Shown here piece by piece: positions 33,816 through 53,528 of a stretch of DNA of 64,000 bases (its first letter is position 1; the number at the start of each line of letters is the position of its first letter). Location of the stretch: positions 186,001 to 250,000 of the forward strand of contig NZ_BOOU01000044.1 in assembly GCF_016863395.1 (NCBI RefSeq). The letters run 5' to 3'. Under the pieces are notes generated by a model, which worked only from the letters and a program-made list of their open reading frames with translations, was not told the origin of the DNA and did not search any database. Source of the stretch: Sphaerisporangium rufum (GTDB lineage Bacteria > Actinomycetota > Actinomycetes > Streptosporangiales > Streptosporangiaceae). The translations under genes and the position numbers were made by a program.

Positions 33816-34766
33816 TCAGTAGGCGCCGAGGACGTCGACCACGAACACCAGCGTGTCGGTGCCCTTGATCTTGTCGCCCTGGCCCTGCTTGCCGTACCCG
33901 AGGTCCGGCGGGATGGACAGCAGCATCCGGCTGCCGACCGGGACGCCGACCAGGCCCTGGTCCCAGCCCTTGATGACCTTGCCGACGCCGATCGGGAACA
34001 TCACCGGCTGGCCGCGGGTCCAGGAGCTGTCGAACTCGGTGCCCTTGCCCCAGATCTTGCCGGTGTAGTGCACCAGCAGGCTCTGGCCCTTCTTCACCAC
34101 CGGGCCGGTGCCCTTGATGACGGTCTTGGCGACCAGGCCCTTGGGCGCGGACTCATCGGTCTTGGTGGTGAGCACCGGGGCCTTGTCGCCGCCGGGGTTC
34201 TCCAGCTTGACGCCCTTGACGCCGGGGTCGGTGGCGGTGCCCTGCGCGGCCTTGACGGTGGGCACGCCCATCACGTCGACGACGTAGACGCTGGCCATCT
34301 GGTCGGCGCCCTGCGACTTGGCCTGCTCGGCCTGCTGCGGAGTGAGGCTGTCCTTGGCCACCACGGCGAGGAACCGGCCGCCGGGCTTGCTGTCCTGGAA
34401 GGCCTTGTGCACCACCGACGGCAGGTTGGCGTCGACCTTGATGAGCTGCGGCGCGCCGTCGTCGTAGGTGGAGCCGGAGGCGCCGTTGGCCTTGCCGTCC
34501 CAGCTGTAGGCGGTGAGGTTGGCCACCACCGAGTCGCCGTCCTTGACGGCCGCGCCCTGCCCCTCGGAGATCGTCTCGGCCGAGGAGGTCACCGGCGGCT
34601 TGCCCGAGGGGAAGGTCACCTGCGGCTTCTGGCCGAAGGACCCGGCCACCTTTACCCCGGAGGCGGTGGCGCCGGCGGGCTTGGCGGCGCTGTCACCGCC
34701 CCCTCCCCCGCCACAGGCGGCGGCGAAGAGCAACGGCACGGCGACGAGAACGGCCAATCGGCGCAT
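33816..34766 (-). CDS. FKBP-type peptidyl-prolyl isomerase, lipoprotein
   Basis: A 316-aa exported protein: signal peptide with lipobox FAAAC (C18), a glycine-rich tether, a degenerate N-terminal FKBP-like domain (about residues 55-180), and a C-terminal canonical FKBP domain. The latter shows LLVHYTGKIW, GTEFDSSWTRGQPVMFPIGVGKVIKGWDQGLVGVPVGSRMLL (given here in shortened reading: GTEFDSSW, VIKGWDQGLVG), PPDLGYG and LVFVVDVLGAY. It catalyses proline isomerisation outside the membrane. ATG 34766 was chosen over ATG 34772 because of the taggg spacing. Its place after pafA is the conserved actinobacterial order. Confidence 0.92.
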   Translation of the reverse strand: MRRLAVLVAVPLLFAAACGGGGGGDSAAKPAGATASGVKVAGSFGQKPQVTFPSGKPPVTSSAETISEGQGAAVKDGDSVVANLTAYSWDGKANGASGSTYDDGAPQLIKVDANLPSVVHKAFQDSKPGGRFLAVVAKDSLTPQQAEQAKSQGADQMASVYVVDVMGVPTVKAAQGTATDPGVKGVKLENPGGDKAPVLTTKTDESAPKGLVAKTVIKGTGPVVKKGQSLLVHYTGKIWGKGTEFDSSWTRGQPVMFPIGVGKVIKGWDQGLVGVPVGSRMLLSIPPDLGYGKQGQGDKIKGTDTLVFVVDVLGAY

Positions 34767-34922
34767 GGGCATCCCTAGGAAAGACGTCAGGCTCGCGCCA
34801 CACTACCCGACCTGCGGCGCGGGACGATCCGGATGGCACGACCTTGACCGGCCACGGCCCCGGCCTTGACACCCGATCCGCGGCGGGCCGGGCCGTACGC
34901 AGGTCAACGTCCCGGACACGGG

Positions 34923-34957
34923 TCACGGCCGGCGCCGGAGGCCGGCGCCGGCCGTGA
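34923..34957 (-). terminator. Hairpin after pafA
   Basis: Perfect 16-bp arms (34923-34938 and 34942-34957, outer bases tcacggccgg/ccggccgtga) with a 3-nt loop, 33 bp beyond the pafA stop. It ends the prcB-prcA-pafA transcript, so the FKBP gene should have its own promoter. Confidence 0.75.
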
Positions 34958-34989
34958 AAGTTTCCCGCCGCTCGCCCGGCGGGCCGGCC

Positions 34990-36348
34990 TCACATGCCGG
35001 CGATCAGCTTGTCCACCCGCTCATCGACCGCGCGGAACGGGTCCTTGCACAGCACGGTGCGCTGGGCCTGGTCGTTCAGCTTCAGGTGCACCCAGTCGAC
35101 GGTGAAGTCGCGGCGCTTCTCCTGCGCCTTGCGGATGAACTCGCCGCGCAGCCGGGCCCGGGTGGTCTGCGGCGGTACCGACTTGGCCTCGAAGATCTTC
35201 AGGTCGGAGGCCACCCGCTCCACCGCGCCCCGCCGCTGCAGCAGGTAGAACAGCCCTCGCTTGCGGTGCACGTCATGGTAGGCGAGGTCGAGCTGGGCGA
35301 CCCGCGGCGAGGACAGCGGCAGGTCGTACTTGTCGCGGTAGCGCTCGATCAGCTGGTACTTCGTCACCCAGTCGATCTCCCGGGAGACCAGGTCGAGGTT
35401 GCCGGACTCCACCGCGCGCAGCGTGCGCTCCCACAGCTCCAGCACCCGCCGGGTGATCGGGTCGGCGCCCCGCCGGTCGGCGAAGTCCTGCGCCTTGGAC
35501 AGGTATTCCTGCTGGATCTCCAGGGACGAGGCCTCGCGCCCGTTGGCCAGGCGCACCCGGCGGCGGCCGGTCATGTCGTGGGAGACCTCGCGGATCGCCC
35601 GGATCGGGTTCTCCAGGCTGAGGTCGCGCATGACCGTGCCGGCCTCCACCATCCGCAGCACCAGGTCGGTCGCGCCGACCTTCAGCAGCATGGTGGCCTC
35701 GCTCATATTGGAGTCGCCGACGATGACGTGCAGGCGGCGGAAGCGCTCGGCGTCGGCGTGCGGCTCGTCCCGGGTGTTGATGATCGGCCGCGAGCGGGTG
35801 GTGGCGCTGGAGACCCCCTCCCAGATGTGCTCGGCCCGCTGGGAGACGCAGTAGACCGCGCCCCGGGGGGTCTGCAGCACCTTGCCGGCCCCGCAGATGA
35901 TCTGCCGGGTCACCAGGAACGGGATCAGGACATCGGCCAGCCGGCCGAACTCGCCGTGCCGGCCCACGAGGTAGTTCTCGTGGCATCCGTAGGAGTTGCC
36001 CGCCGAGTCGGTGTTGTTCTTGAACAGGTAGATGTCCCCGGCGATGCCCTCCTCGCGCAGCCGCTTCTCGGCGTCGACGAGCAGCCCCTCAAGGATGCGC
36101 TCGCCCGCCTTGTCGTGGGTGACCAGCTCCACGACGTTGTCGCACTCGGGTGTGGCGTACTCGGGATGGCTGCCCACGTCCAGATACAGGCGGGCGCCGT
36201 TGCGCAGGAAGACGTTGCTCGATCGACCCCAGGACACGACTCTGCGGAACAGGTACCGCGCCACCTCGTCGGGGGACAGCCGCCGCTGGCCCCGGAAGGT
36301 GCAGGTGACGCCGTATTCGTTCTCCAAGCCGAAGATGCGACGATCCAT
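34990..36348 (-). CDS. pafA: Pup-protein ligase PafA
   Basis: A 452-aa carboxylate-amine ligase of the glutamine synthetase-like fold. It phosphorylates the C-terminal glutamate of Pup and ligates it to substrate lysines. Visible are FGLENEYGV with the metal-binding E9/E11, [36 protein letters not shown] and [20 protein letters not shown], all diagnostic for PafA/Dop. The Dop-specific insertion loop is absent, and the length matches PafA. It is transcribed after prcB and prcA with a 226-bp gap. Confidence 0.97.
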
Positions 36349-36507
36349 CTCCTCACACTATGTCCCCGGGGCGCCCGGCGGGAGAGATCCTCGGCGGGTT
36401 TCCGGGCGCCCGGACGCTGTCCGGGTGGCCGGCCGACCGTGGATCTAACCCGCGGCCGGTGGATCTCCCCGCCGATGACCGGACCCGGCCGGTCGCCGCA
36501 CCGGCCG

Positions 36508-36524
36508 CGGGACACCGCGTCCCG
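36508..36524 (-). terminator. Small hairpin between prcA and pafA
   Basis: cgggac-accgc-gtcccg forms a 6-bp stem within the 226-bp prcA-pafA gap. It is weak, so it may attenuate rather than stop transcription. The gap is otherwise GC-rich with several gggcgcccgg-type short inverted repeats and no gene. Confidence 0.35.
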
Positions 36525-36574
36525 GCCGCCTGTCCAGAAGGAGACCGGGACGCGCCGCTGCGGGCCGCGTGCGA

Positions 36575-37414
36575 CTATTCGGGCGAGCCGGTGTCGATGT
36601 CGCCCTCCGGCGCGGTGGCCGGACCGGTGTCGGCGGGACCGGCCTCCTTGGCGCCGGTCTCCTTGGCGCCGGTGGGCTTGCCCGCGGTGGACCCGCCGCC
36701 CGCCTTGCCGGCCTTGGCCGTCCCGCCGCCGGCCGCGAGCAGCCGCTCCAGGCGCGGGCCGCTCAGCCGCTGGAACTTGCGGTGCTCGCGGGTGCGGTCC
36801 AGCACCGCGACCTCCAGCTGGGCGACCGGGGTGCGCTCGCCGCCGGGTTCGGTCAGCGCCGCCAGCGCCGCGTCCAGCGCCGCCTCCAGGGGCATTCCCT
36901 CGCGGAAGCGGTCCTTCAGCCGGCCGGCCACCGCGTCGGCCACGCCGCCCATGGCCACGTAGCCGTGCTCGTCGGCGACCGAGCCGTCGAAGGTCAGCCG
37001 GTAGATCTGGTCGCCGTCGGGGGTGTCCCCGACCTCGGCCACCACCAGCTCCACCTCGTACGGCTTGCGGGACTCGGTGAAGACCATGCCGAGCGACTGG
37101 GCGTACAGGTTGGCCAGGCCGCGGGCGGTGACGTCGCCGCGGTCGTAGGTGTAGCCGTTGATGTCGGCGTAGCGGATGCCGCCGAGCCGCAGCGCCTCGA
37201 ACTCGTTGTACTTGCCGACCGCGGCGAAGCCGATGCGGTCGTAGATCTCGCTGATCTTGTGCAGCGCCCGGGAGGCGTTGGGCGCGACGAACAGGATGCC
37301 GTTCTCGTACTGCAGCACCACGACGCTGCGGCCGCGCGCGATGCCCTTCCGCGCGAAGTCGGCCTTGTCCCGCATCTCCTGTTCGGGGGACACATATCCA
37401 AAGGGCATGGACAC
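36575..37414 (-). CDS. prcA: 20S proteasome alpha subunit PrcA
   Basis: A 279-aa alpha-type subunit: the N-terminal gate sequence [28 protein letters not shown] and the Ntn-hydrolase fold without a catalytic threonine. It has a long C-terminal Ala/Gly/Lys/Glu-rich tail from about residue 230 (typical of actinobacterial PrcA, but long). Alpha rings cap the core particle and bind the ARC/Mpa ATPase. GTG 37414 or the ATG two codons later could start it. It lies 35 bp after prcB. Confidence 0.96.
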
Positions 37415-37449
37415 CGGTGGTGATCCTCTCCTGGCCGTGGGTTTGAGAA

Positions 37450-38283
37450 CTAGCGCAGCGGGGCGGTGGGACCGTCGGGGGTCTGCAGGCGCTGGTCGAG
37501 CATGCGCCGCACGTACCCCTCGACCTCCTCGTCGCTCAGCCGGCGGTATCCCTCGTCGTCGATCACCGCGATCAGCGGCCAGATCTTACGGGTGACGTCC
37601 GGCCCGCCGGTGGCCGAGTCGTCGTCGGCGGCGTCGTACAGGGCGTTCACGCAGGCGAGCACGGTGTCCTCCGCGCTCATCCCCTCGCGGTACAGCTTCT
37701 TCAGCGCGCCGCGCGCGAACAGCGAGCCCGAGCCGATCGAGGCGTAGCCGGTCTGCTCGTAGGGGCCGCCGCCGACGTCGTAGGAGTAGATGCGGCCGCG
37801 CGCGCTGGTCTCGTCGAAGGCGGCGAACAGTGGGACGACCGCCAGGCCCTGCATGGCCATGGGCAGGTTGCCGCGGATCATGGTGGCCAGCCGGTTGGCC
37901 TTGCCCTCGACCGAGAGCGTGCGGCCCTCGCGCTTCTCGTAGTGCTCCAGCTCCACGCAGTACAGCCGGGCGAGCTCCATGCCGACGCTGGCGGTGCCGG
38001 CGATGCCCATGGCGGAGTACTCGTCGGTGCGGAAGACCTTCTCCATGTCCTTCTGGGAGATGTAGTTGCCCGAGGTGGCCCGCCGGTCGCCCGCGATCAC
38101 CACGCCGCCGGCGAAGACGGCCGCGACGATCGTGGTCGCGTGCGGCAGCCGGTCGCCGACCGGGCCCGACGCCTCGAACCTCCCGGGCAGCAGCCCCGGG
38201 GCGTACGAACCGACGAACTCGGTGAACGATGTGGAACCGGTGTCCCGGAAAAGGTCGTTCATCCAGCCCCGCTGTGCTGTCAC
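37450..38283 (-). CDS. prcB: 20S proteasome beta subunit PrcB
   Basis: A 277-aa precursor with a 49-residue propeptide and the catalytic threonine T50 at the LPHA/TTIVA junction. It has [17 protein letters not shown] (the active-site Asp/Arg/Lys region), [15 protein letters not shown], and [19 protein letters not shown]. The junction reads HA-TT rather than the more common HG-TT. GTG 38283 was chosen because gggagg lies seven bases upstream. It begins the prcB-prcA-pafA run. The usual neighbour upstream, pup, is displaced by 9 kb. Confidence 0.96.
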
Positions 38284-38447
38284 GCGACTTCCTCCCAAGC
38301 GCCTACACGTCCTAGGGCGACCCTACTGCCGTGGCTGTGCTGGTTGCACTTCCCCCTATCCGCTCACGGCGAACCCCTTTCGCCCAGGCAGCCCCATCGT
38401 TCCCAAATCTTGTCTTTACGCCGGTGACCGAGCGTGGAATTGTTCAG

Positions 38448-38470
38448 TTGTCGTGACATACAGGTAAAAC
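38448..38470 (+). promoter_or_regulatory. Candidate promoter of the sugar ABC operon
   Basis: TTGTCGTGA, 8 bases, then TAAAAC, ending 24 bp before the solute-binding protein's GTG. It resembles the PafBC-type RecA-NDp promoter (TTGTCRGTG-N8-TANNNT) in its first half and spacing, but misses the GTG register and the last T. Treat it as an ordinary promoter candidate unless tested. Confidence 0.35.
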
Positions 38471-38494: not shown

Positions 38495-39871
38495 GTGAGA
38501 CCCGCCCGCATGCTGACCGCACTCGCCGCCGCCACGCTCGCGCTCGCCGCGTGCGGCTCGGAGGGTTCCTCCTCCGGTTCCGGCGACGACAACACCCTGA
38601 CGATCACCGCGAACGCCATCTCCGGCGGCAAGAACGCCGCCACCGCCGACTGGACCAAGAACTGGCTGATCCCCAAGTTCCAGGAGGCGCAGAAGGCCAA
38701 GGGCCGCAACGTCCAGGTCACGTTCCAGCCGAACGGCGTGGACGACGAGCAGTACAAGACCAAGATCGCTCTGGACCTGAAGTCGAAGGCCGGCGCGGAC
38801 ATCATCGACCTGGACGGCATCTGGGTCGGCGAGTTCGCCCAGGCCGGGTACATCAAGCCGCTGAACGAGGCGGCCGGCCCCGAGGTCGACAAGTGGGAGG
38901 GCTGGAGCCAGATCCCCGAGGCCGTCCAGGGGCTCGGGGCCTTCGAGGACAAGAAGTACGGGCTCCCCCAGGGCACCGACGGCCGGGTGCTGTTCTACAA
39001 CAAGAAGCTGTTCGCCAAGGCCGGGCTGCCCGCCGACTGGCAGCCCAAGAGCTGGCAGGAGATCATCGACGCGGGCACCGCGCTGAAGAAGGCCGGGGTT
39101 CCCACCCCGCTGCAGATCGACGCGGGCACCGCCATGGGCGAGGCGACCACCATGCAGGGCGCGCTGCCGCTGCTGGTGGGCACCGGCAGCGAGATCTTCG
39201 CCGACGGCAAGTGGGCCGGCGGCTCGCAGGCGGTCAAGGACGTGCTCGGCTTCTACCGGCAGATCTTCACCGCCGGGCTGGCCGAGCCCCGGCTGCAGCA
39301 GGAGGCCAAGGGCCGCGACAAGTCGTTCCAGCAGTTCGCCGACGGCAAGATCGGCGTGCTGGCCGAGGGCGACTACTTCTGGCGCTCGGTGATCGAGCCG
39401 AAGGCCGGCGTCGCCCCGATGCAGGACCGCGAGGACACCGTCGGCTACGCGCTGATCCCGGCCAAGCAGCCGGGCGCCGGAGTGCGCGGGCAGGACTTCG
39501 TCAGCATGTCCGGCGGCGCGGTGCGCGTCCTGAACCCCAACTCCAAGAACCCCAAGCTGGCCTGGGAGCTGCTCGCCTTCATGCACTCGGCGGAGGCCAC
39601 CAAGGAGGGCCTGATCGGCGAGGCGCGGATCACCTCGCGCACCGACGTCAACGACGAGGTGCTCAAGGACAACCCCATGCTGGACTTCGTCGCCCAGAAG
39701 GTGCTGCCGATCACCTCCTACCGGCCCGGCCTGGCGGTCTACCCGCAGGTGTCGGTCGCCCTGCAGGAGGCCACCGCCGACATCGTCTCGGGCAAGAGCG
39801 TGGAGGAGGCCGCCGCCGCCTACGACAAGAAGGTCGCCGACCTCGTCGGCCCCGAGAACGTCACCCGATGA
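38495..39871 (+). CDS. Carbohydrate ABC transporter solute-binding lipoprotein
   Basis: A 458-aa family 1 extracellular solute-binding protein: lipoprotein signal with LALAAC (C20), a Ser/Gly linker, then two lobes with typical motifs (IIDLDGIWVGEFAQAGYIKPL, KKYGLPQGTDGRVLFYNKKLF, WQEIIDAGTALKKAG). It captures a sugar outside the membrane and delivers it to the two permeases that follow. The downstream mannosidase suggests a mannose-containing glycan. GTG 38495 follows caggagg. It is divergent from prcB across 211 bp. Confidence 0.92.
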   Translation: MRPARMLTALAAATLALAACGSEGSSSGSGDDNTLTITANAISGGKNAATADWTKNWLIPKFQEAQKAKGRNVQVTFQPNGVDDEQYKTKIALDLKSKAGADIIDLDGIWVGEFAQAGYIKPLNEAAGPEVDKWEGWSQIPEAVQGLGAFEDKKYGLPQGTDGRVLFYNKKLFAKAGLPADWQPKSWQEIIDAGTALKKAGVPTPLQIDAGTAMGEATTMQGALPLLVGTGSEIFADGKWAGGSQAVKDVLGFYRQIFTAGLAEPRLQQEAKGRDKSFQQFADGKIGVLAEGDYFWRSVIEPKAGVAPMQDREDTVGYALIPAKQPGAGVRGQDFVSMSGGAVRVLNPNSKNPKLAWELLAFMHSAEATKEGLIGEARITSRTDVNDEVLKDNPMLDFVAQKVLPITSYRPGLAVYPQVSVALQEATADIVSGKSVEEAAAAYDKKVADLVGPENVTR

Positions 39872-40059
39872 CCCACGCCGACAAGCCCGCCCCGCCGCGC
39901 GGTGGGATCACCCGGCGGGCCACCACTCCGGTGTTCGGGCGCGCCGGTGTCCTGAGGGAGGAGCGGTCAAGTGCGAGGAACGAGCGCTTGCCCGCGACGA
40001 CTGAAGGACGCCGGCTGAAGGGCGCCCGAACACAGCGCGAGCGGAGCGAGCGCCAATGA
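39868..40059 (+). CDS. 63-aa ORF coupled at both ends between SBP and permease
   Basis: A small frame with ATG in the SBP stop (ATGA at 39868) and TGA overlapping the first permease's ATG (40056-40059). The protein is basic (NERLPATTEGRRLKGARTQ near its end) and lacks family motifs. Its second half is made by the inverted-repeat element at 39931-40033 and resembles translated REP-like sequence. It may be a real leader that couples translation, or the original N-terminus of the permease gene interrupted by a palindromic insertion. Confidence 0.4.
   Translation: MTHADKPAPPRGGITRRATTPVFGRAGVLREERSSARNERLPATTEGRRLKGARTQRERSERQ
39931..40033. repeat. 103-bp inverted-repeat element between SBP and permease genes
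   Basis: gtgttcgggcgc (39931-39942) and gcgcccgaacac (40022-40033) are perfect 12-bp inverted repeats that bound a segment rich in short gagcgg/gaggaacgagcg motifs. The stem would sit directly after the SBP gene, a place where such structures raise SBP mRNA over permease mRNA. Its repeat-like content also suggests a small palindromic (REP/MITE-like) insertion. Confidence 0.6.
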
Positions 40060-40940
40060 GCACAGACGCCGCGGGACTCGGGCGGGGCCGGGCGGTCGGG
40101 TTCATGGTGCCGGCGCTCGTGCTCATCGGCGTGTTCCTGGTGTTCCCCGCGCTGTGGACGATCTATCTCGGGCTCACCGACTTCCGGCTGACCGGCCTGG
40201 CCGCGGCGGACCCGAAATTCGTCGGCGCCGAGAACTACACCGCGGCCCTCGGCGACGAGCGCTTCCACACCTCGCTGTGGCTCACCGTGCAGTTCGTGCT
40301 CGGCTCGGCGGTGATCGGCCAGGCCGGGCTCGGCTTCGCGATCGCCTGGGCGCTGCGCGACCGCAGCGGGCCGGTACGGCGGGTGGTGGAGGGCCTGGTG
40401 CTGCTGGCCTGGATCCTGCCGTCCTCGGTGGTGGCGTTCCTGTGGATCGCGCTGCTGGACGGCGACCAGGGCACGCTGAACGCGCTGCTGCGCACCGACG
40501 GGTTCGCCTGGCTGCTGGACCACCCGATGGCGTCGATCGTCCTGTTCAACACCTGGCGCGGCACCGCGTTCTCGATGATGCTCTACGGCGCGGCGCTGGA
40601 GAGCGTGCCGCCCTCGCACCTGGAGACGGCCCGGCTGGCCGGGGCGTCGGCGTTCCAGCAGCTGCGCGACGTGGTCTTCCCGCGGATCCGCGGGCACATG
40701 CTGACCAACCTGCTGCTGATCAGCCTGTGGACGTTCAACGACTTCACCGCCTTCCAGCTCACCGCGGGCGGGCCGGAGGGCCGTTCGGAGATCCTGCCGG
40801 TGTACATCTACAACGTCGCGCTGAACGGCGGGAAGCTCGGCTTCGGCGCCGCGGTGTCGTTCCTGGTGCTGCTGATCAACCTGGTGCTGGCGCTGGTGTA
40901 CCTGCGCCTGCTGCGCGGCCGGCGGGGGGTGGCGGCATGA
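40056..40940 (+). CDS. Carbohydrate ABC transporter permease 1 (MalF type)
   Basis: A 294-aa permease with six TM segments (GFMVPALVLIGVFLVFPALWT as TM1) and the EAA loop AARLAGASAFQQLRDVVFPRI preceded by a LETARL motif. It forms a heterodimer with the next gene product. The ATG is within the TGA of the 63-aa ORF, and its own stop overlaps the next ATG. It has family-typical length and a start with MSTDAAG before TM1. Confidence 0.93.
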   Translation: MSTDAAGLGRGRAVGFMVPALVLIGVFLVFPALWTIYLGLTDFRLTGLAAADPKFVGAENYTAALGDERFHTSLWLTVQFVLGSAVIGQAGLGFAIAWALRDRSGPVRRVVEGLVLLAWILPSSVVAFLWIALLDGDQGTLNALLRTDGFAWLLDHPMASIVLFNTWRGTAFSMMLYGAALESVPPSHLETARLAGASAFQQLRDVVFPRIRGHMLTNLLLISLWTFNDFTAFQLTAGGPEGRSEILPVYIYNVALNGGKLGFGAAVSFLVLLINLVLALVYLRLLRGRRGVAA

Positions 40941-44124: not shown

Positions 44125-46854
44125 TTGAGCGAGACGCTGGACGGGATCGACGAGACCGGCGAGACCGGCGAGACCGGCGAGATCGTCGTGGTCCCGCACA
44201 CCCACTGGGACCGTGAGTGGTACCTGCCGTTCCAGCGGTTCCGGATGGGCCTGGTGCGCATGCTGGACGAGGTGCTGGACGCGATGGCCGCCGACCCCGG
44301 CTACCGGTTCACCATGGACGGGCAGCTCGCGGCGGTCGAGGACTACCTGGAGATCCGGCCCGAGCGGCGCGCCGAGCTGGCCCGCGTCGTGGCCGAGGGC
44401 CGGTTCGCCGCCGGGCCGTGGGCCATCCTGGCCGACGAGTTCCTGTGCTCGGGCGAGACGCTGATGCGCAACCTGGAGTTCGGGCTGCGCGGAGCGCGAG
44501 AGCTCGGCGCGGCCATGGAGGTGGGCTACCTGCCCGACCAGTTCGGGCACTGCGCGCAGATGCCGCAGATCCTGGCGCTGGCCGGGCTGCCGGTCGCCTG
44601 CCTGTGGCGCGGGGTGCCCGCGTCGGTGACCCGGGACGCCTTCGCCTGGGAGGGCGCGGACGGCACGGTGGTGCGCACCCAGTACCTGCCCGGCGGGTAC
44701 GGCAACGCGGTGGCGCTGTTCACCGGGCCGCCGGAGGAGATGCCCGGCCGGCTCGCCGCCTTCACCGCCGCCATGCGCCCGTGGCGGCCGGCCGGGCCGC
44801 TGCTGGCGATGTACGGGGCCGACCACTCCGCGCCCGCGGCCGGCATCACCGCCGCCGGGCTGCGGCTGGCGACCCTCGGCGAGTACCTGGCCGAGGTGGC
44901 GGGCGGGCCGGTGGCCGAGGACCTGCCGGTGGTGCGCGGCGAGTTGCGCTCGCACGCGCGGGCCAACATCCTGCCCGGGGTGATCTCCGCGCGGGTCCCG
45001 CTCAAGCGCGTCATGGGACGGGCCGAGCGGGTGCTGGCCCGCTACGCCGAGCCGCTGGCGGCGCTGTGGCTGGCGCAGGACGATCCAGGGGCCCGCACCG
45101 CGGCGCAGCGTCTCATCGACCTGGCCTGGCGCGGCGTGGTGGCCTGCAGCGGCCACGACTCGATCACCGGTTGCGGCGCGGACGAGACCGCCGAGCAGGT
45201 GGCCGCGCGGATCGCCGAGGCCGAGCAGACCGGGCAGGCGGTGGTCGACCTGGTGAGCGGTTCGCTGGCCCGCGGCGCGGGCGGCGACCAGATCGTGGTG
45301 GTCAACCCTTCGCCGTTCCCGCGGGCCGGGCTGGTGCCGGTGGAGCTGCCGCGCGCCCGCGCCGGGCTGCGGGCGCCGGACGGCTCGGCCGTCCCGGTGC
45401 AGGTGCTGGCCGAGCCGCCGGAGGTGCTGGACGAGACGGTCATGGACGACCTGACCCGGGTGCTCGGCCGGGTGCACGAGCGGGAGCTGTTCGGGCACGA
45501 CATCGTGTCCTGGTCGGCGGACGGCGACGTCTTCACCATCAACGTGGCGCGCCGGGCGGAGACGCCCTACCGGCACGCCGACCTGGCGGCGGCGCTGCGC
45601 GCGGCGGCGGACGCCGGGCCCGGCCCGTGGCGGGTGCGCACGGTCGCCGAGCCGCTGGTGCGCGCGGTGGCCCTGGCCCGGGTGCCGGCGCTGGGCCGGA
45701 CGGTGCTCACCTCGGTGCCGGCCGCCGGCGCCCCGGCCGCGCCGGCGGCGGGCGAGGAGGGCGTGCTGGACAACGGGCTGCTGCGGGTCACCGCCGAGCC
45801 GGGCGGCACGCTGGCGCTGCGCACCGCGGCCGGGCTGACCGCGACCGGCGTGGGGCGGATCGTGGACGGCGGCGACTGCGGCGACACCTACAACCACGCC
45901 CCGCCGGCCGCCGACCGGCTGGTGAGCGAGCCCGCCTTCGTGAAGGTGGGCCCGGTGCGCCGCGGCCCGCTGGTGTCGGTGATGGAGATCGTCCGGGGCT
46001 ACCGGTGGCCGGTGTCCGGCACCGCCGGGGAGCGCTCGCCGCGGGAGGCCGAGGTGACGGTGACCACCCGGGTCGAGCTGCGGGCCGGCGAGCCGTACGC
46101 CCGGCTGGAGACGTCCTTCGACAACGTGTGCCGCGACCACCGGGTGCGCTGGCACGCCGCGCCGCCCCGGCCGGCCGCCGAGTCGTTCGCCGGCGGGCAG
46201 TACGCCGTCGTGCGGCGCGGCACGGCGGCGGAGGGCGGCGGCGGCGAGGCGCCGCTGCCCACCTACCCGGCGGCGGAGTTCGCCGCGGCGGGCGGGCTTG
46301 CGGTGCTGCTGGACCACGTCACCGAGTACGAGCTGACCGGCGGCGGGGAGCTGGCGGTGACGCTGCTGCGGGCGGTGGGTCACCTGTCGCGCAACGACAA
46401 CGCGCTGCGCGACGAGCCGGCCGGGCCGCAGATCGCCACCCCCGGCGCGCAGTGCCCCGGGCCGCACACCGCCCGGTTCGCGGTGCACCTGTACGACGGG
46501 GACTACGCGGCGGCGGGGCTGCCGCGGCTGGCCGAGGAGTACCACCACGAGCTGCTGGCCGTCCCGGGCACCGGCCCGGTCTCCGGCGACCGGCGGGCGC
46601 CGGAGATGACCGAGGCGCTGGAGATCACCGGGGACGGGGTCATGCTGGGTGCGCTGCGCCGGCGGGAGGGCCGGCTGGAGGTGCGGCTCGCCGCCCGGCA
46701 CCCGGCGGCCGTCGAGGCGGTCGTGCGCGGGGCGTTCCGGGCCGCCTGGGCCGCCGACACGCTGGGGCGGGCGCTGCGTCCGCTGCCGGTCGCCGACGGG
46801 GAGCTGAGGTTGTCGCTGCGGCCGTTCGAGATCGCCACCGTGCATCTCGCCTGA
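44125..46854 (+). CDS. Alpha-mannosidase, glycoside hydrolase family 38
   Basis: A 909-aa cytoplasmic enzyme with GH38 landmarks: PHTHWDREWY (zinc ligands H25 and D29 region), the nucleophile-bearing LPDQFGHCAQMPQ (D138), the HDSITGCGADE zinc-binding histidine region, and C-terminal beta domains. It cleaves alpha-mannosides taken up by the ABC importer. TTG 44125 follows aaggaga. The first 20 residues contain a GET repeat (tandem gagaccggc units), prone to length variation. It is the last gene of the operon; a GC-rich hairpin at 47033-47066 ends it. Confidence 0.93.
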   Translation: MSETLDGIDETGETGETGEIVVVPHTHWDREWYLPFQRFRMGLVRMLDEVLDAMAADPGYRFTMDGQLAAVEDYLEIRPERRAELARVVAEGRFAAGPWAILADEFLCSGETLMRNLEFGLRGARELGAAMEVGYLPDQFGHCAQMPQILALAGLPVACLWRGVPASVTRDAFAWEGADGTVVRTQYLPGGYGNAVALFTGPPEEMPGRLAAFTAAMRPWRPAGPLLAMYGADHSAPAAGITAAGLRLATLGEYLAEVAGGPVAEDLPVVRGELRSHARANILPGVISARVPLKRVMGRAERVLARYAEPLAALWLAQDDPGARTAAQRLIDLAWRGVVACSGHDSITGCGADETAEQVAARIAEAEQTGQAVVDLVSGSLARGAGGDQIVVVNPSPFPRAGLVPVELPRARAGLRAPDGSAVPVQVLAEPPEVLDETVMDDLTRVLGRVHERELFGHDIVSWSADGDVFTINVARRAETPYRHADLAAALRAAADAGPGPWRVRTVAEPLVRAVALARVPALGRTVLTSVPAAGAPAAPAAGEEGVLDNGLLRVTAEPGGTLALRTAAGLTATGVGRIVDGGDCGDTYNHAPPAADRLVSEPAFVKVGPVRRGPLVSVMEIVRGYRWPVSGTAGERSPREAEVTVTTRVELRAGEPYARLETSFDNVCRDHRVRWHAAPPRPAAESFAGGQYAVVRRGTAAEGGGGEAPLPTYPAAEFAAAGGLAVLLDHVTEYELTGGGELAVTLLRAVGHLSRNDNALRDEPAGPQIATPGAQCPGPHTARFAVHLYDGDYAAAGLPRLAEEYHHELLAVPGTGPVSGDRRAPEMTEALEITGDGVMLGALRRREGRLEVRLAARHPAAVEAVVRGAFRAAWAADTLGRALRPLPVADGELRLSLRPFEIATVHLA

Positions 46855-47032: not shown

Positions 47033-47066
47033 GACGGGACGCGCGGCCCCGGCCCCGCGTCCCGTC
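47033..47066. terminator. Convergent terminator between mannosidase and pup
   Basis: gacgggacgcg (47033-47043) and cgcgtcccgtc (47056-47066) form an 11-bp stem with a 12-nt GC-rich loop. The right arm overlaps the pup stop codon (47065-47067). It serves transcripts from both strands. The 178 bp to its left hold only GC-rich short repeats. Confidence 0.6.
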
Positions 47067-47274
47067 ACTGCCCGCCCTTCTGCACGTAGCTGCGCACGAA
47101 CTCCTCGGCGTTCTCCTCGAGCACCTCGTCGATCTCATCGAGGATGGCGTCCACGTCGTCGGTCAGCTTCTCCTGACGTTCCTGGACGTCGGAAGACGCC
47201 TGCGCCTCGGTCTCCTCGACCTCGGCATCCTGCCGGCCGGCGTGCTTCTGACCGCCGGTGTCCTTCGTCGCCAT
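47065..47274 (-). CDS. pup: Prokaryotic ubiquitin-like protein Pup
   Basis: A 69-aa disordered acidic protein: an N-terminal TGGQKHAGRQ segment, a helical central region (VQERQEKLTDDVDAILDEID) that binds the ARC coiled coils, and the C-terminal ENAEEFVRSYVQKGGQ. It ends in Gln, so it must be deamidated by Dop to Glu before PafA can use it. The ATG has ggaggtaccac upstream. It has its own promoter (TTGTCG-N16-TATGAA) and is isolated between plus-strand genes instead of lying between dop and prcB. Confidence 0.96.
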   Translation of the reverse strand: MATKDTGGQKHAGRQDAEVEETEAQASSDVQERQEKLTDDVDAILDEIDEVLEENAEEFVRSYVQKGGQ

Positions 47275-47304: not shown

Positions 47305-47332
47305 TTCATATCTTCCCCGAACCGGACGACAA
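47305..47332 (-). promoter_or_regulatory. pup promoter
   Basis: On the minus strand TTGTCG (47332-47327), 16 bp, TATGAA (47310-47305), with the pup ATG 30 nt downstream of the -10. Fits a housekeeping sigma factor. An independent promoter makes sense because pup is separated from dop and prcB here. Confidence 0.6.
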
Positions 47333-47447
47333 TTCGCGCGGATCGTCCCGTGAACTCCGCGAGACCGGCTGGAAGTGGTCTTCCAGTCCTCAGCGTCCCC
47401 GGCCACCCGGGGTGCAAATCCCACCAAGTACGCAGAATTTACTCCGC

Positions 47448-47499
47448 TGGACAGTGAAGCTATCCAGTGATTGGATAGCTTCACTGTCCAATGACTGGA
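47448..47499. promoter_or_regulatory. Nested palindromes with overlapping, mutually exclusive stems
   Basis: Palindrome A: 19-bp perfect arms (47448-47466 and 47472-47490) around gtgat. Palindrome B: tccagtgattgga (47463-47475) and tccaatgactgga (47487-47499), 12 of 13 complementary. A and B share 47463-47466 and 47487-47490 so they cannot form together. B would cover part of the ribosome-binding site (ctggagg, 47495-47501) of the membrane protein at 47507. It could be a compound operator or an RNA switch. Confidence 0.7.
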
Positions 47500-47506
47500 G
47501 GCCCCC

Positions 47507-47911
47507 ATGTCCCCGTCGTCCCTCAGCACCGCCGGGATCGTGCTGATCACCGTACCCACCATCGCCGTCGGCGGCGCCTCGCTGCTCACCCTGATCGGCC
47601 GCCGCATCCCCGGGTACCTGGACAATCCGGTACGCCGCGGGCTGTGGCGGGCCGGGCACGCGCACGCCGGCGTGCTGGTGATCTTCGCGCTGGTCGCGCT
47701 GCTCTACATCGACCAGACGAGCCTGCCGGACGGCGCCAGGACGCTCGTCCGGCTGCTCATGGTGGCCGCGCCCATCCTGATGCCGCTCGGCTTCTTCCTG
47801 TCGGTGCTGCGGCCCTCCGACACGCGGCCGGGCGCGATGATCTGGCTCACCGTCCTCGGCGGCCTCTGCCTGGCCGCCGGCACCCTGATCCTCGGGATCG
47901 GCCTGCTATAG
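47507..47911 (+). CDS. Small four-TM membrane protein
   Basis: A 134-aa protein with four predicted TM helices (about residues 8-28, 48-68, 80-100, 110-130) and a loop bearing GRRIPGYLDNP followed by AGHAHAGVLVIF. The histidines in the GHAHAG segment lie at a membrane edge and could bind metal or heme. Family unknown to me, though proteins with RAGHAHAGVL are common in actinomycetes. An elaborate palindrome ends 16 bp before its ATG, so expression is probably tightly controlled. It is between dop and pup, on the opposite strand. Confidence 0.75.
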   Translation: MSPSSLSTAGIVLITVPTIAVGGASLLTLIGRRIPGYLDNPVRRGLWRAGHAHAGVLVIFALVALLYIDQTSLPDGARTLVRLLMVAAPILMPLGFFLSVLRPSDTRPGAMIWLTVLGGLCLAAGTLILGIGLL

Positions 47912-48029: not shown

Positions 48030-48908
48030 ATGAGAGCGGACCACGCACAGCTGCTCGGTAACCGATACCGGTTGATCTCCCCGCTCGGGCGGGGCGGCAT
48101 GGGCGTCGTCTGGCGCGCCCATGACGGCCGGCTGGCCCGGGACGTCGCGATCAAGGAGTTGCGCCCGTCCCGCCACGGCGAGCTCGACGTGCACGCGGTC
48201 CGCCGCCGCGCGCTGCGCGAGGCCCGCTCGGCCGCCCGGCTCAGCCATCCGGCGATCGTCACCGTGCACGACCTGCTGGAGGAGGACGGCCGGCTGTGGA
48301 TCGTCATGGAACTGGTGGAGGCGCTGACGCTCCAGGCCACCGCCTGGCACCTGGGCCGGCTGCCGGTGCACTGGACGGCGTGGATCGGCTTCCACCTGCT
48401 CAGCGGGCTGCGGCACGCCCACGCCGCGGGCGTCCTGCACCGTGACATCAAGCCGGGGAACGTGCTGCTGACCGGCGAGCGGGTGGTGCTGAGCGACTTC
48501 GGCATCGCCACGCTGCGCCGCGACCCCGGCCAGGGCCCGCACGGCCCGGCGACCATGCCGGTCGTCGGCTCCCCCGGCTACATCGCCCCCGAGCGGCTCG
48601 GCGGGCACCCGGCGACCGAGGCCGCCGATCTGTGGTCGTTCGGCGCCACGCTGTACTTCTCGGTGGAGGGCACCCCGCCGCCCGCGTCCGGCGACGGCGC
48701 GGCGGTGCGCAACCTGATGAGCGCCTCCCGGGCCGGCGCGCTCACCCGCCTGCTGGAGGGCCTGCTGCAGCCCGACCCGGCCCGCCGGCTCAGCGGCGGC
48801 GACGCCGCCGCCATGCTGTCGGGCATCCTGCGCACCGAGGGGGTCGCCGTCCCGCCGATGCGCCTGGACGGCGGCGGCCTGTTCTCCTCCGGCGCCTTCA
48901 CGATGTGA
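48030..48908 (+). CDS. Soluble serine/threonine protein kinase
   Basis: A 292-aa Hanks-type kinase with the complete catalytic set: glycine loop LGRGGMGVVWRAHD, K42 in VAIKEL, HRDIKPGNV (137-145), DFG (156-158) and SPGYIAPERLGG. It has no TM segment or extracellular sensor, so it is cytoplasmic, unlike PknB. The C-terminus is short. Plausible partners nearby are the FHA protein at 55 kb and pupylation proteins, but the evidence is positional only. ATG 48030 follows aggtgac. It is convergent with dop. Confidence 0.9.
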   Translation: MRADHAQLLGNRYRLISPLGRGGMGVVWRAHDGRLARDVAIKELRPSRHGELDVHAVRRRALREARSAARLSHPAIVTVHDLLEEDGRLWIVMELVEALTLQATAWHLGRLPVHWTAWIGFHLLSGLRHAHAAGVLHRDIKPGNVLLTGERVVLSDFGIATLRRDPGQGPHGPATMPVVGSPGYIAPERLGGHPATEAADLWSFGATLYFSVEGTPPPASGDGAAVRNLMSASRAGALTRLLEGLLQPDPARRLSGGDAAAMLSGILRTEGVAVPPMRLDGGGLFSSGAFTM

Positions 48909-48971: not shown

Positions 48972-50489
48972 TCAGCGCTCGCCGGTGAGGGCGCTGACCA
49001 GCTCGGCGGCGGTCTGGCAGCGGTCCAGCAGCTCGCCCACGTGCGCCTTGGTGCCGCGCAGCGGCTCCAGGGTGGGCACCCGCTGCAGCGACTCGCGGCC
49101 CGGGATGTCGAAGATCACCGAGTCCCAGGAGGCGGCGGCCACCGAGTCGCTGTACTGGCGCAGGCAGCGGCCCCGGAAGTAGGCCCGGGTGTCGTTGGGC
49201 GGCAGTTCGATCGCCCGCCGCACGTCCTCCTCGGTCACCAGCCGCTGCATGCGGCCCCGGGCGACCAGGCGGTTGTACAGGCCACGGTCGGGGCGGATGT
49301 CGGAGTACTGCAGATCGACCAGCTGCAGGCGCGGATGCGACCAGGCCAGCCCGTCACGGGTGCGGTACCCCTCCAGCAGCTCCAGCTTGGCCACCCAGTC
49401 CAGCTCCCGGGACAGCTGCATCGGGTCCTCGGCCAGCCGGCTGAGCACCGACTCCCACCGGGCCAGCACGTCCTTGGTCAGGTCGTCCACCGCGGCGCCG
49501 AACCGGTCCTCCACGTACTTGCGGGCCTGCTCCAGGTACTCCATCTGCAGCTGCACGGCGGTCATCCGCCGGCCGTCGCGCAGGGTCAACTCGTAGCGGC
49601 AGGTGGGGTCGTGCGACACCGCGCGCAGCGCGGCGACCGGGCTCTCCACCGACAGGTCGGTGGTGAGGAAGCCGTCCTCGATCATGGCGAGCACCAGCGC
49701 GGTGGTGCCGAGCTTCAGGTAGGTGGAGATCTCCGACATGTTGGCGTCACCGATGATCACGTGCAGCCGGCGGTACTTCTCCGGGTCGGCGTGCGGCTCG
49801 TCCCGGGTGTTGATGATCGGCCGCTTCAGCGTGGTCTCCAGGCCGACCTCGACCTCGAAGAAGTCGGCCCGCTGGCTGATCTGGAACCCCTCGCCCCGGG
49901 AGTCCTGCCCGATGCCGACCCGGCCGGCCCCGCAGACGACCTGGCGGGAGACGAAGAACGGGGTCAGGTGCCGGACGATATCGGCGAACGGGGTGGCCCG
50001 CCGCATCAGGTAGTTCTCGTGGCAGCCATAGGAGGCGCCCTTGTTGTCGGTGTTGTTCTTGTAGAGCTGGATGGGGGCGTTTCCGGGGGTGGCGGCGGCC
50101 CGGACGGCGGCGTCGTGCATGACCCGCTCGCCCGCCTTGTCCCACAGGACCGCGGCCCGCGGGTTGGTGCACTCGGGCGCGGAGTACTCGGGATGGGCGT
50201 GGTCGACGTACAGCCGCGCCCCGTTGGTCAGGATGACGTTGGCCAGCCCGAGGTCCTCGTCGGTGAGCTGGGTGGGATCGGCGACCTCGCGGGCCAGGTC
50301 GAAGCCGCGGGCGTCGCGTAGCGGATTCTCCTCCTCGAAGTCCCAGCGTGCCCGGCGCGCCCGGGCGGCCGAGGCCGCCAGGTAGGCGTTGACGACCTGT
50401 GAGGAGGTCACCATCGCGTTCGCACCCGGCTGCCCGGGTACGGAAATGCCGTACTCGGTCTCGATGCCCATGACCCGCCGTACCGTCAC
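48972..50489 (-). CDS. dop: Pup deamidase/depupylase Dop
   Basis: A 505-aa enzyme homologous to PafA. It deamidates the C-terminal Gln of Pup and also removes Pup from substrates. Hallmarks: MGIETEYGI near the N-terminus, the Dop-loop region after residue 40 (rich in Ala/Arg, [18 protein letters not shown]), [33 protein letters not shown] and [23 protein letters not shown] 50489 matches the usual [10 protein letters not shown] start. It lies downstream of arc, separated by a terminator hairpin. Confidence 0.97.
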
Positions 50490-50640: not shown

Positions 50641-50673
50641 GACGGCGCGGCCCCGGGGAGGAACCGCGCCGTC
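50641..50673 (-). terminator. Hairpin after arc
   Basis: gacggcgcgg (50641-50650) and ccgcgccgtc (50664-50673) pair as a 10-bp stem with a 13-nt loop, 16 bp past the arc stop. dop thus probably has a separate promoter in the remaining 150 bp. Confidence 0.6.
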
Positions 50674-50688
50674 GCATGCCGATCTCGA

Positions 50689-52452
50689 TCAGAGGTACTG
50701 GCCGGTGTTGGCGACCGTGTCGATCGACCGGCCGGCCTCCGTGCCCTGCTTGCCGGACACCAGGGTGCGGATGTAGACGATGCGCTCGCCCTTCTTGCCG
50801 GAGATGCGCGCCCAGTCGTCGGGGTTGGTGGTGTTGGGGAGATCTTCGTTCTCGCTGAACTCGTCGACGCAGGCGGCGAGCAGGTGCGCGATGCGCAGGC
50901 CCTTCTGGCCGGTCTCCAGGAAGGCCTTGATCGCCATCTTCTTGCCGCGGTCCACGATGTTCTGGATCATGGCGCCGGAGTTGAAGTCCTTGAAGTACAG
51001 GACCTCCTTGTCGCCGTTGGCGTAGGTCACCTCGAGGAAGCGGTTCTCCTCGCTCTCGGTGTACATGCGCTCCACCGTGCGCTGGATCATGCCGCCCACG
51101 GTGGCCTCGCGCGAGCCGCTGTGCTCGCCGATGTCGTCCTCGTGCAGCGGCAGGGTGGTGGTGAGGTACTTGGAGAAGATGTCCTTGGCCGCCTCGGCGT
51201 CCGGCCGCTCGATCTTGATCTTGACGTCCAGGCGGCCGGGCCGCAGGATCGCCGGGTCGATCATGTCCTCGCGGTTGGAGGCGCCGATGACGATGACGTT
51301 CTCCAGGCCCTCGACACCGTCGATCTCCGACAGCAGCTGGGGGACGATCGTGTTCTCGACGTCGGAGGAGACGCCGGAGCCGCGGGTGCGGAAGATCGAG
51401 TCCATCTCGTCGAAGAAGACGATCACGGGGGTGCCCTCGGAGGCCTTCTCGCGGGCCCGCTGGAAGACCAGGCGGATGTGCCGCTCGGTCTCGCCGACGT
51501 ACTTGTTGAGAAGCTCGGGGCCCTTGATGTTGAGGAAGAAGCTCTTGCCGGACTGGCCGGTCTTCTCCGCGACCTGCTTGGCCAGGGAGTTGGCGACGGC
51601 CTTGGCGATGAGGGTCTTGCCGCAGCCGGGGGGACCGTACAGCAGCACGCCCTTGGGCGGGCGCAGCTGGTGCTCGCGGAACAGGTCCGCGTGCAGGTAG
51701 GGCAGCTCGATGGCGTCGCGGATCTGCTCGATCTGCCGGGAGAGGCCGCCGATCTCCTCGTAGGAGATGTCGGGCACCTCCTCCAGGACGAGCTCCTCGA
51801 CCTCGGACTTGGGGATGCGCTCGTAGACGTAGCCCGAGCGCGGCTCCAGCAGCAGCGAGTCGCCGGCGCGGATCGGCTGGTCGACCAGCGACTCGGCCAG
51901 CCGCACCACCCGCTCCTCGTCGGCGTGCGAGATGACCAGCGCGCGCTGGCCGTCCTCCAGCAGTTCCTTGAGCATCACGATCTCGCCGACGCTCTCGTAG
52001 CCGAGCGCCTCGACGACGTTGAGCGCCTCGTTGAGCATGACCTCCTGGCCGCGCCGCAGCGCGTCCAGATCGACCGCCGGGCTGACGTTCACCCGCAGCT
52101 TGCGGCCGCCGGTGAACACCTCGACGGTGCCGTCTTCGCGGGCCTCCAGGAAGACGCCGAACCCGGACGGCGGCTGCGCCAGCCGGTCGACCTCCTCCTT
52201 CAGCGCCACGATCTGGTCTCTGGCCTCCTTGAGGGTGGCCACCAGCCTTTCGTTCTGGCCCGTGACGGCCGCCAGGTTTGCCTGCGCCTCGTGCAGGCGC
52301 TCCTCAAGGACCCTGGTCTGCCGTGGGGACTCGGCCAGCTTGCGCCGCAACGCGGTGATCTCCTCCTGGAGGAAGGAGACCTGAGTTGTGAGGTCCGCGA
52401 CCTCCCGTTCGCGCTGGGCGGCCCGAGCCTCAGCGTCATCGCGAGCTGCCAC
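50689..52452 (-). CDS. arc: Proteasome-associated AAA ATPase ARC/Mpa
   Basis: A 587-aa hexameric ATPase: N-terminal coiled coil (residues about 10-93) that binds Pup, two OB domains (about 95-225), an AAA module with Walker A GPPGCGKT (about 273-280), Walker [10 protein letters not shown] and sensor [18 protein letters not shown], and a C-terminal GQYL that docks into the PrcA ring. It unfolds pupylated substrates. GTG 52452 was preferred because aaggagg lies five bases upstream; GTG 52458 abuts that site. Confidence 0.96.
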
Positions 52453-52488
52453 AGTCACCTCCTTCCCAGTCGAGGGCGACTACTCAAG

Positions 52489-52516
52489 ACCCTACCTATC
52501 TCGGGGCCGTCCGTAA
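52489..52516 (-). promoter_or_regulatory. Candidate arc promoter
   Basis: Minus strand TTACGG (52516-52511), 16 bp, TAGGGT (52494-52489), about 37 bp before the arc GTG. A similar TAGGGT lies upstream of prcB, hinting at a shared sigma factor. The 215-bp gap up to trmI also contains an AT-rich stretch (ttacatcaagtgttcggcatttaacgag). Confidence 0.45.
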
Positions 52517-52667
52517 CCTGGCCGGGGAGTGTTCGTGTCATTACATCAAGTGTTCGGCATTTAACGAGTTTTGCAGCACTCATTGCTTCTTAGCAGATAT
52601 GCCCACGGATCTGTTCCCTGCGCGTTGGACGGCTCCGGAGGGTTGCCATCCCCGCGCCCACCTTTCG

Positions 52668-53528
52668 TCATATATCCGACTCCTCCGTGTACGCACCCTT
52701 GGCCGGACGACGCCGTCTCGGTGGCGGGGTGACGCCGTCCGCCATGCGACGGGCGGTGACGAGGAAACCGGTATGACCGACCATCCGGTGTCCCGGGCGG
52801 ACGGCCAGGCCTTCGACATGCCAGTCGCGGACCAAGGTTTCCCACGAATGAGGCTCGGTGAAACTTCCGTGATCGCGCAAGGTTTCCACCGTTCGCGACA
52901 ACTGCGTGGTTGTAGCCACATAGCAACAGATGACACCCCCGGGGGTGAGGGCCTTGGCCGCCGCGTCCACGCACTCCCACGGGGCGAGCATGTCCAGCAG
53001 CACCCGGTCGACGTCGGACTCGTCCAGCGCGTGCACGAAGTCGCCCACCACCAGGCGCCACTGCTCCATGGGGCCGCCGTAGAACTTCTCGACGTTCTTG
53101 CGCGCCACGTCGGCGAAGTCCTGCCGCCGCTCGTAGGAGGTGAGCCGGCCGCTCTCGCCCACCGCGCGCAGCAGGTAGCAGGTCAGCGCGCCGGACCCGA
53201 CGCCCGCCTCCACCACCCGGGCACCGGGGAACACGTCGGCCATGGCCACGATCTGCGCGGCGTCCTTGGGATAGACCACCGCGGCGCCCCGCGGCATGGA
53301 CACCGCGTAGTCGTGCAGCAGGTGGCGGAAGGCCAGGTAGGCGGTGCCGCCGGAGGAGCGCACCACCGAGCCTTCCGGTAGCCCGATCAGGTCGTCGTGC
53401 GGAATGGAGCCCTTGTGGGTATGGAAGACCGCGCCCTCGCGCAAGGTCACGGTGTGACGCTTGTCCTTCGGGTCGGTGAGCTGTACCTGATCACCGGGCC
53501 GGAACGGCCCGTGCCTGCGAAAACCCAT
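52668..53528 (-). CDS. trmI: tRNA (adenine-58-N1) methyltransferase TrmI
   Basis: A 286-aa SAM-dependent methyltransferase. The N-terminal domain has GPFRPGDQVQLTDPK and FHTHKGSIPHDDLIGLPEG; the catalytic domain has motif I VVEAGVGSGALTCYLLRAVG, ERRQDFADVARKNVE and LLDMLAPWECV. It methylates A58 in the T-loop of tRNA. ATG 53528 begins at the conserved N-terminus; a GTG at 53552 is in frame. Its place just before arc is conserved in actinomycetes. Confidence 0.95.
   Translation of the reverse strand: MGFRRHGPFRPGDQVQLTDPKDKRHTVTLREGAVFHTHKGSIPHDDLIGLPEGSVVRSSGGTAYLAFRHLLHDYAVSMPRGAAVVYPKDAAQIVAMADVFPGARVVEAGVGSGALTCYLLRAVGESGRLTSYERRQDFADVARKNVEKFYGGPMEQWRLVVGDFVHALDESDVDRVLLDMLAPWECVDAAAKALTPGGVICCYVATTTQLSRTVETLRDHGSFTEPHSWETLVRDWHVEGLAVRPGHRMVGHTGFLVTARRMADGVTPPPRRRRPAKGAYTEESDI

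Follow-up and report, generated by a model that had tools for sequence, protein, structure and literature searches.

The actinobacterial Pup-proteasome locus of the Mycobacterium tuberculosis type carries arc, dop, pup, prcB, prcA, and pafA in one order and one direction. Here, we analyze the corresponding locus of Sphaerisporangium rufum in a window of 64,000 nucleotides (the whole stretch analyzed, contig NZ_BOOU01000044.1, positions 186,001 to 250,000 of the forward strand), which has this order and direction in common with the M. tuberculosis-type locus but differs from it by opposite-strand blocks that separate dop, pup, and prcBA. The genes trmI-arc-dop-pup-prcB-prcA-pafA cluster co-directionally in their usual order on the minus strand (34990-53552), and two plus-strand blocks interrupt their contiguity, so that pup has opposite-strand genes as its neighbors on either side. 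Such blocks are not mentioned in the accessible part of PMC8223512, and the limited literature collection searched yielded no item linking Streptosporangiaceae with the proteasome and Pup, nor any title naming this arrangement or the pathway proposed below. The best overall explanation, to which we assign a probability of about 0.75, is a historical insertion of an operon predicted to encode a mannoside pathway, with the proteasome as its neighbor. The arrangement is real, ancestral, and mostly historical; its link to the proteasome is weak, and the guess at the pathway is the part worth testing.

PafA, PrcA, PrcB, Dop, ARC, and Pup all exceed curated cut-offs, and the profile matches and gene map agree with the gene order, strands, and coordinates given in the original prediction, which a model had made from the sequence of the window:
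34990..36348, minus strand: pafA, Pup ligase (TIGR03686, 756 bits, cut-off 551)
36575..37414, minus strand: prcA, 20S alpha (TIGR03691, 359 bits, cut-off 139)
37450..38298, minus strand: prcB, 20S beta (TIGR03690, 352 bits, cut-off 192)
47065..47274, minus strand: pup, 69 amino acids with a GGQ end (PF05639, E 5e-30; TIGR03687, 72 bits, cut-off 41)
48972..50489, minus strand: dop (TIGR03688, 794 bits, cut-off 492)
50689..52458, minus strand: arc/mpa (TIGR03689, 842 bits, cut-off 505)
52668..53552, minus strand: TrmI-type methyltransferase (generic methyltransferase matches only; same position in relatives)

The name TrmI for the last of these is presumed; its profile matches are only to generic methyltransferases. 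The start of prcB is probably a GTG near 38283, downstream of GGGAGG, rather than the TTG at 38298, as judged from the position of the ribosome site.

Importers of the CUT1/UgpABCE type, which take up sugars and glycerophosphodiesters, combine an SBP_bac_1 solute-binding protein (SBP), two BPD permeases, and a UgpC/MsiK-type ATPase that are encoded together. The same set occurs in the plus-strand block at 38495-46854, between prcB and pup, along with a PHP metallohydrolase and a GH38 enzyme:
38495..39871, plus strand: sbp, CUT1-type solute-binding lipoprotein (PF01547, 109 bits; lipoprotein by eye)
40056..40940, plus strand: permease 1 (PF00528)
40937..41812, plus strand: permease 2 (PF00528; P0001)
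41809..42861, plus strand: UgpC/MsiK-type ATPase (PF00005 plus TOBE)
42858..44102, plus strand: php, PHP metallohydrolase of the CehA/McbA family (NF038032, 124 bits, cut-off 80; start inferred)
44125..46854, plus strand: gh38, GH38 alpha-mannosidase (PF01074, Glyco_hydro_38N, 113.9 bits, cut-off 25)

Relatives of the SBP in the PDB include maltose, trehalose, and UgpB-like SBPs. The ATPase reaches 385 bits, short of the 432 that the UgpC subfamily requires, and the importer, whose substrate is putative, differs from the described ones in its linkage to the PHP and GH38 enzymes. The start of php is probably a GTG near 42858, overlapping the stop codon of the ATPase gene. Membership of the CehA/McbA family is indicated by a domain score above the NF038032 cut-off, and membership of GH38 by a Glyco_hydro_38N score above the gathering score. 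The GH38 enzyme has the N-terminal domain in common with MngB and other bacterial GH38 enzymes (2wyh, 3lvt), and its HTHWDREW and GYLPDQFGH motifs align to 3lvt, which together with 5kbp and 2wyh is among its closest solved structures. Unlike MngB, it falls far short of the PRK09819 equivalog cut-off (321 bits versus 1138), it lies in an ABC/PHP operon, and it has IolE/IolG-like partners in relatives. The six-protein sugar-uptake and mannoside-degradation operon of the original prediction is thus found with the gene content stated, as are the kinase and small membrane protein that it placed between dop and pup.

The locus was compared in 63 Streptosporangiaceae genomes, namely S. rufum itself (G000) and 62 others, selected from a sample of 150 genomes of the family by a best PrcB match above 400 bits (68-84% identity), as well as in 14 outgroups, a non-random choice because they were picked mostly for long pup-prcB gaps among the other 83 PrcB-bearing genomes. 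We take these outgroups to be Thermomonosporaceae and kin, and the genus referred to below as g4 to be Nonomuraea, both being unconfirmed guesses. The locus lies on two stretches in G129, G061, G071, and G025, and genes hidden by the break were scored as present in G061 and G071. Two further genomes with a broken prcB, G068 and G099, are outside this set; they are excluded from the counts of traces and losses and included in the 150-genome comparison of iolD.

The full set of six genes is found intact at the site, with order and strand unchanged, in 22 of the 63 genomes, and some trace of the operon is present in 44/63, compared with 0/14 outgroups. A scan of named genomes for PrcB gave 80 loci, the closest being those of Sphaerisporangium (80-84%), four of whose seven named loci have the operon at the same site. 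It is whole or nearly so at the site in named Planotetraspora, Microbispora, Streptosporangium, Spongiactinospora (without gh38), and other genomes, and neither sbp nor gh38 was found between pup and prcB in 49 loci of other families (L033-L081), in four of which only prcB is visible. Orthologous SBPs (at least 56% identity) occur outside the 63 genomes in seven of the 150, and at the Pup locus only in G068 and G099, kin of G121, where the operon from sbp to php lies beside pup.

In the tree of the SBP, permeases, and ATPase, the 28 at-site copies form one clade with a support of 1.0, and 14 copies from elsewhere in the genomes fall outside it, with an adjoining clade of such copies (0.91). 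The operon tree has 18 of 25 splits in common with the locus tree, compared with a mean of 0.23 and a maximum of 2 after label shuffling. The single at-site clade and the shared splits show, as far as sequence comparison goes, a common ancestry of the at-site copies with mostly vertical inheritance, and therefore point to one old insertion followed by repeated decay, very probably in the ancestor of the Streptosporangiaceae in the narrow sense. In this ancestor, the pup-prcB interval would have received, a single time, a divergent operon for catabolism, and the kinase/membrane-protein pair would have entered the dop-pup interval in about the same part of the tree. A recent local insertion is ruled out, since the operon goes back to the origin of the family so defined. 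The original prediction had reasoned that an order found in most close relatives would be ancestral rather than an insertion; because of this narrow-sense ancestry its reasoning holds in kind, with the operon whole in 22/63 genomes and traceable in 44/63.

Repeated loss is equally apparent from the comparison. By a Dollo count, each operon gene was lost 10-16 times, sbp about 16 times; these counts are approximate, since support deep in the locus tree is low (down to 0.08-0.6). All 77 genomes of that tree have pup, prcB, and prcA. Intermediate stages of decay are seen in several genomes. In G119, the importer genes are gone save a stub and php, mocA, and gh38 are kept; G009 has fragments next to an intact gh38, G141 retains only sbp, G027, G079, G106, and G146 retain gh38 stubs, and five g33 genomes have a gap of 177-210 nucleotides at the site. 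S. album (G108) has lost the operon and bears its scars, which we recognize as the sbp control element described below, at consensus (0/400 shuffles equal), and an adjoining stretch resembling the last codons of gh38. Where the six genes are intact, they are under purifying selection: the ratio of nonsynonymous to synonymous substitution rates (dN/dS) lies between 0.065 and 0.54 in six close pairs, with 34/36 values below 0.4, the highest value (permease 1, G138/G038) coming from a partial match. The corresponding values are 0.05-0.20 for prcB and 0.07-0.35 for prcA. This series of whole, partial, scarred, and absent operons provides a natural test of which genes of a conserved locus are bound together.

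Three conserved noncoding stretches are found around the insert:
38318..38375, minus strand: prcBA promoter-like block, ending in TAGGGTCG (comparison of the 63 genomes and 14 outgroups)
38433..38457, minus strand: 25-nucleotide control element of the sbp operon, minus reading GTCACGACAACTGAACAATTCCACG (profile from sbp-bearing loci)
47305..47339, minus strand: pup promoter-like block, TTGTCG...GGGGAAGATA (comparison of the 63 genomes)

The prcBA block contains GGTTCGC in 60/63 genomes and a GTANGGT-type site in 63/63, operon or not, and its counterpart in the outgroups shows GGTTCGCC and TAGGGT in 13/14; judging by this conservation, the promoter-like block is older than the insert. The pup block reads GGGGAA[GA]ATA in 60/63 genomes, comprising 29/30 with sbp and 31/33 without. 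Upstream of pup in the 14 outgroups, which have neither insert, TAGGGT is found in 8 and TAGAGT in 4. The block of the 63 differs in make, being of the GGGGAAGATA type in 60/63 and lacking GTAGGGTC, and the pup block has therefore changed. According to the original prediction, Pup now has its own promoter. A conserved block does lie upstream of pup with or without the operon and may be that promoter, but the "now" is probably wrong in time, given these motifs upstream of pup in outgroups without inserts; TAGGGT is also found at the outgroup prcB, yet the pup block itself changed in the 63. Before the insertion, pup and prcBA were probably already controlled separately, which would have made it harmless, and pup, prcBA, and the sbp operon would form separate transcription units. 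A sigma-70 consensus scan gave no match near pup or prcB, and a terminator scan gave no result. An inverted repeat, GGGGA...TCCCC, occurs between the pup block and the ribosome site (47275-47339) in most printed relatives and is a possible leader hairpin.

The 25-nucleotide element is present in 29/30 of the sbp-bearing loci that defined its profile and occurs at one place in the draft genome of S. rufum at up to 3 mismatches; a local regulator may act there. The divergent spacer between prcB and sbp measures 169-257 nucleotides in 29/30 loci. Fossils of the element remain in the sbp-less G009, G129, and G119 (each with 0/400 shuffles as good); in all, 28/33 sbp-less genomes have no clear element, four have one at 0/400 shuffles, and one at 7/400. 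Of the two options in the original prediction, that of insertions with their own regulation is supported as to the insertions, and the conserved control blocks suggest the regulation.

The substrate of the operon is suggested by its sister operons elsewhere in the genomes. In genus g4, all five are divergent from iolC, iolB, and iolD of a myo-inositol catabolism cluster (iolC-J-B-D, iolG, iolE), four also with an iolJ-type aldolase gene (by eye), and they carry distant IolE- and IolG-like genes. An IolE-like gene is frequent in the sister operons (132 bits, cut-off 290), and a MocA-type oxidoreductase gene is present at 27/63 sites, mostly between php and gh38; the best NCBIfam match of the operon MocA protein (in G022) is IolG, with a TIGR04380 score of 42 bits, below the cut-off of 355. 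Unlike the iol clusters, the Pup-locus stretches lack an IolE-like gene (none in the 81 searched), and the six Sphaerisporangium genomes in the set gave no MocA/IolG-like gene at the site. A second-site set without SBP in G025 adjoins an iolJ-type gene. Among 396 genomes of the phylum, 13 others have a PHP match; of the six fetched, G320, G374, and G267, from three other families, have the same eight genes near the PHP gene in varying order, with gh38 in two pieces in G267.

The distribution of iolD was also compared with that of the operon. It is present in 88/150 family genomes, 37/40 with SBP orthologs and 51/110 without. The sbp and gh38 pair occurs anywhere in the genome in 30 of the 63, a class of "complete" pairs that also takes in copies away from the site and two genomes with a contig break, and all of these are iolD-positive (30/47), compared with 0/16 iolD-negative genomes. 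These 16 genomes stem from about nine losses, and simulating irreversible iolD loss on the tree gave 0 pairs in 5/3000 runs (mean 6.8). Among genomes of at least 8.0 Mb, the pair is found in 28, all iolD-positive, and those without it comprise 9 positive and 9 negative. No split of this kind is seen for the kinase gene, which served as a control (39/47 versus 12/16).

S. rufum itself encodes an iol cluster elsewhere in its genome (with IolG named by eye). Neither a close MocA partner, in a search without a positive control, nor a close IolE-like partner was found there; both would be dispensable if the product were plain inositol. Taking these features together, we tentatively propose, at slightly under even odds, that the substrate is an inositol-linked alpha-mannoside, for which the head group of a phosphatidylinositol mannoside is a candidate. 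The SBP and permeases would import such a compound, e.g. a deacylated phosphatidylinositol mannoside or the head group of a fungal mannosyl-inositol lipid, GH38 would remove its mannose, the PHP enzyme would cut its phosphoester, and the released inositol would feed the iol pathway encoded elsewhere in the genome. It is a slightly more tentative proposal that the CUT1 importer, CehA/McbA phosphoesterase, and GH38 enzyme, joined in the full form by the IolE- and IolG-like proteins, make up an undescribed inositol-mannoside pathway, one copy of which lies inside the proteasome locus of the Streptosporangiaceae. No publication combining the breakdown of phosphatidylinositol mannoside or mannosyl inositol with a mannosidase and an ABC transporter was found in a limited collection. 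Little appears to be known of the scavenging or turnover of inositol mannosides in the metabolism of the actinobacterial envelope, and named genes with which to test it are supplied by the operon.

Several points weigh against this interpretation. In nine of the 14 SBP-holding sister loci (L162, L168-L175), the flanks fetched, some of them short, show no iol gene, and the five loci that have one are all from genus g4; 3/6 fetched phylum genomes (G523, G245, G277) lack such an operon. The iolD comparison was conceived post hoc, after the data had been seen, and the breadth of its "complete" class counts here too. Since 17/47 iolD-positive genomes have no complete pair, the dependence is one-way, and iolD-negative genomes are smaller (mean 7.8 versus 9.0 Mb), which makes a general loss of genes a confounder. 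The MocA- and IolE-like proteins score well under the iolG and iolE cut-offs and may therefore act on another cyclic or keto sugar. As for the insertion and its control, the locus tree is poorly supported at depth, and the sbp element was not found in G025 and is shifted in G125 and G022, its profile being built from the same loci. Another alpha-mannoside, such as mannosylglycerate, N-glycan, or mannan fragments, degraded by a keto-sugar route with MocA and TIM-barrel enzymes, is a real if rather doubtful competitor, under which the iol association would reflect a shared loss of catabolic genes. Pairs of MocA and AP_endonuc_2 proteins also serve keto-sugars, the only NCBIfam match of GH38 is the mannosylglycerate hydrolase PRK09819, and its best PDB matches (3lvt, 5kbp, 2wyh) and the smaller iolD-negative genomes fit this explanation as well. 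The score for PRK09819 is nevertheless far below its cut-off, and the adjacency to iol genes in genus g4, the persistence of the iolD dependence in genomes of at least 8.0 Mb, and the kinase control are better accommodated by an inositol mannoside.

The remaining alternatives concern the site itself. As its other option, the original prediction named a functional reason for the co-location of protein degradation and mannoside use. Such a reason would exist if the operon and prcBA had a divergent control region in common that couples the proteasome level to the scavenging of envelope or foreign glycolipids, e.g. in starvation. The spacer between prcB and sbp is indeed short and constrained and holds both the prcBA block and the sbp element, the latter retained at consensus in S. 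album after operon loss. However, the operon genes were lost 10-16 times each, sbp about 16 times, without loss of pup or prcBA, which all 77 genomes retain; the upstream blocks of pup and prcB are independent of the operon, that of prcBA being alike in outgroups and operon-less genomes; most sbp-less genomes have no clear element, and sister operons are found elsewhere in the genomes. A functional link is thus unlikely, distinctly so in the form of a common control region, and the proteasome would be a neighbor of the sugar operon, not a partner. Many family members hold pup apart from prcBA, a linkage which appears dispensable for keeping the Pup-proteasome. The same operon might also have landed several times in a permissive pup-prcB interval, which accepts other genes (endonuclease VII-type, Y-family polymerase, the open frames of S. 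melleum), as the dop-pup interval accepted cobalamin genes. Independent insertions are disfavored by the single clade of 28 at-site copies with a topology close to that of the locus tree, by the uniform orientation, and by the remnants of the operon and fossils of its control element where a lineage no longer has the whole set, and we regard them as even more improbable than a functional co-location. Finally, S. rufum is a draft of 173 contigs, and the original prediction called for verifying the assembly by long reads if no relative had the same order; an assembly or binning artefact has a negligible likelihood and is ruled out by recurrence, as 21 more of the 63 genomes have the same arrangement, among them the single-contig 9.0-Mb G123 and the two-contig G012, as do named records of several genera. 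A single ancestral insertion with subsequent decay remains the preferred history.

The second plus-strand block, between pup and dop, and the gene downstream of pafA have the following features:
33816..34772, minus strand: FKBP-type peptidyl-prolyl isomerase (NCBIfam matches under the equivalog cut-off; same position in many relatives)
47460..47478, no strand: palindrome CTATCCAATCACTGGATAG adjoining the membrane-gene start (in many, not all, printed relatives; one place in the S. rufum genome)
47507..47911, plus strand: small membrane-type protein, 134 amino acids (no Pfam or NCBIfam match; four-helix membrane look by eye)
48030..48908, plus strand: PknB-type Ser/Thr kinase domain (PF00069, 138 bits)

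The kinase sequence contains HRD and DFG, which we take to be the usual kinase motifs. The kinase gene is present at the dop-pup site in 51/63 genomes, the membrane gene in 33/63, and either of them in 58/63, with neither in the 14 outgroups, and by this distribution the pair is also old. The palindrome, part of a longer inverted repeat that lies upstream of the membrane gene, is likely a local operator. Both it and the sbp element look like local control, as each occurs at a single place in the genome, which argues against a global regulon.

Other cargo is found in both intervals. Between pup and prcB, a whole or partial endonuclease VII-type gene is present in 7/14 outgroups (3 intact; the domain confirmed in one genome, G016) and in 4/5 genus-g4 genomes, and a Y-family polymerase gene is present in 5/5 genus-g4 genomes (the domain confirmed in one, G069). 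The endonuclease VII-domain gene lies directly after pup in G016 (L152:2379-3362) and in similar loci of several outgroups and genus g4, and is possibly the older neighbor of pup. The entries marked "polIV p" in our table of the site correspond to conserved DNA upstream of prcB and not to polymerase genes, and were set aside. The interval of S. melleum contains other open frames (MarR and SDR, named by eye). The dop-pup interval of several relatives contains cobalamin-type genes (CbtA, CobO, CobB, chelatase, tetrapyrrole methylase); in L096, L127, L133, L143, L145, and other Streptosporangiaceae, genes for making cobalamin and transporting cobalt separate dop from the kinase gene. From these gene contents, both intervals have gained and shed cargo.

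The prcB gene of G099 (L195:9305-9890) and G068 (L196:9093-9585) is a short remnant, with prcA and the prcBA control block remaining; both genomes have a 61-62% identical PrcB on another contig, with no prcA in the fetched stretch. In G004 (L199:4288-6657), two more PrcB-like genes (51% and 66%) lie in tandem away from the Pup locus, with no prcA in the 14 kb fetched, and the PrcB scan gave two or three matches in several genomes of the family.

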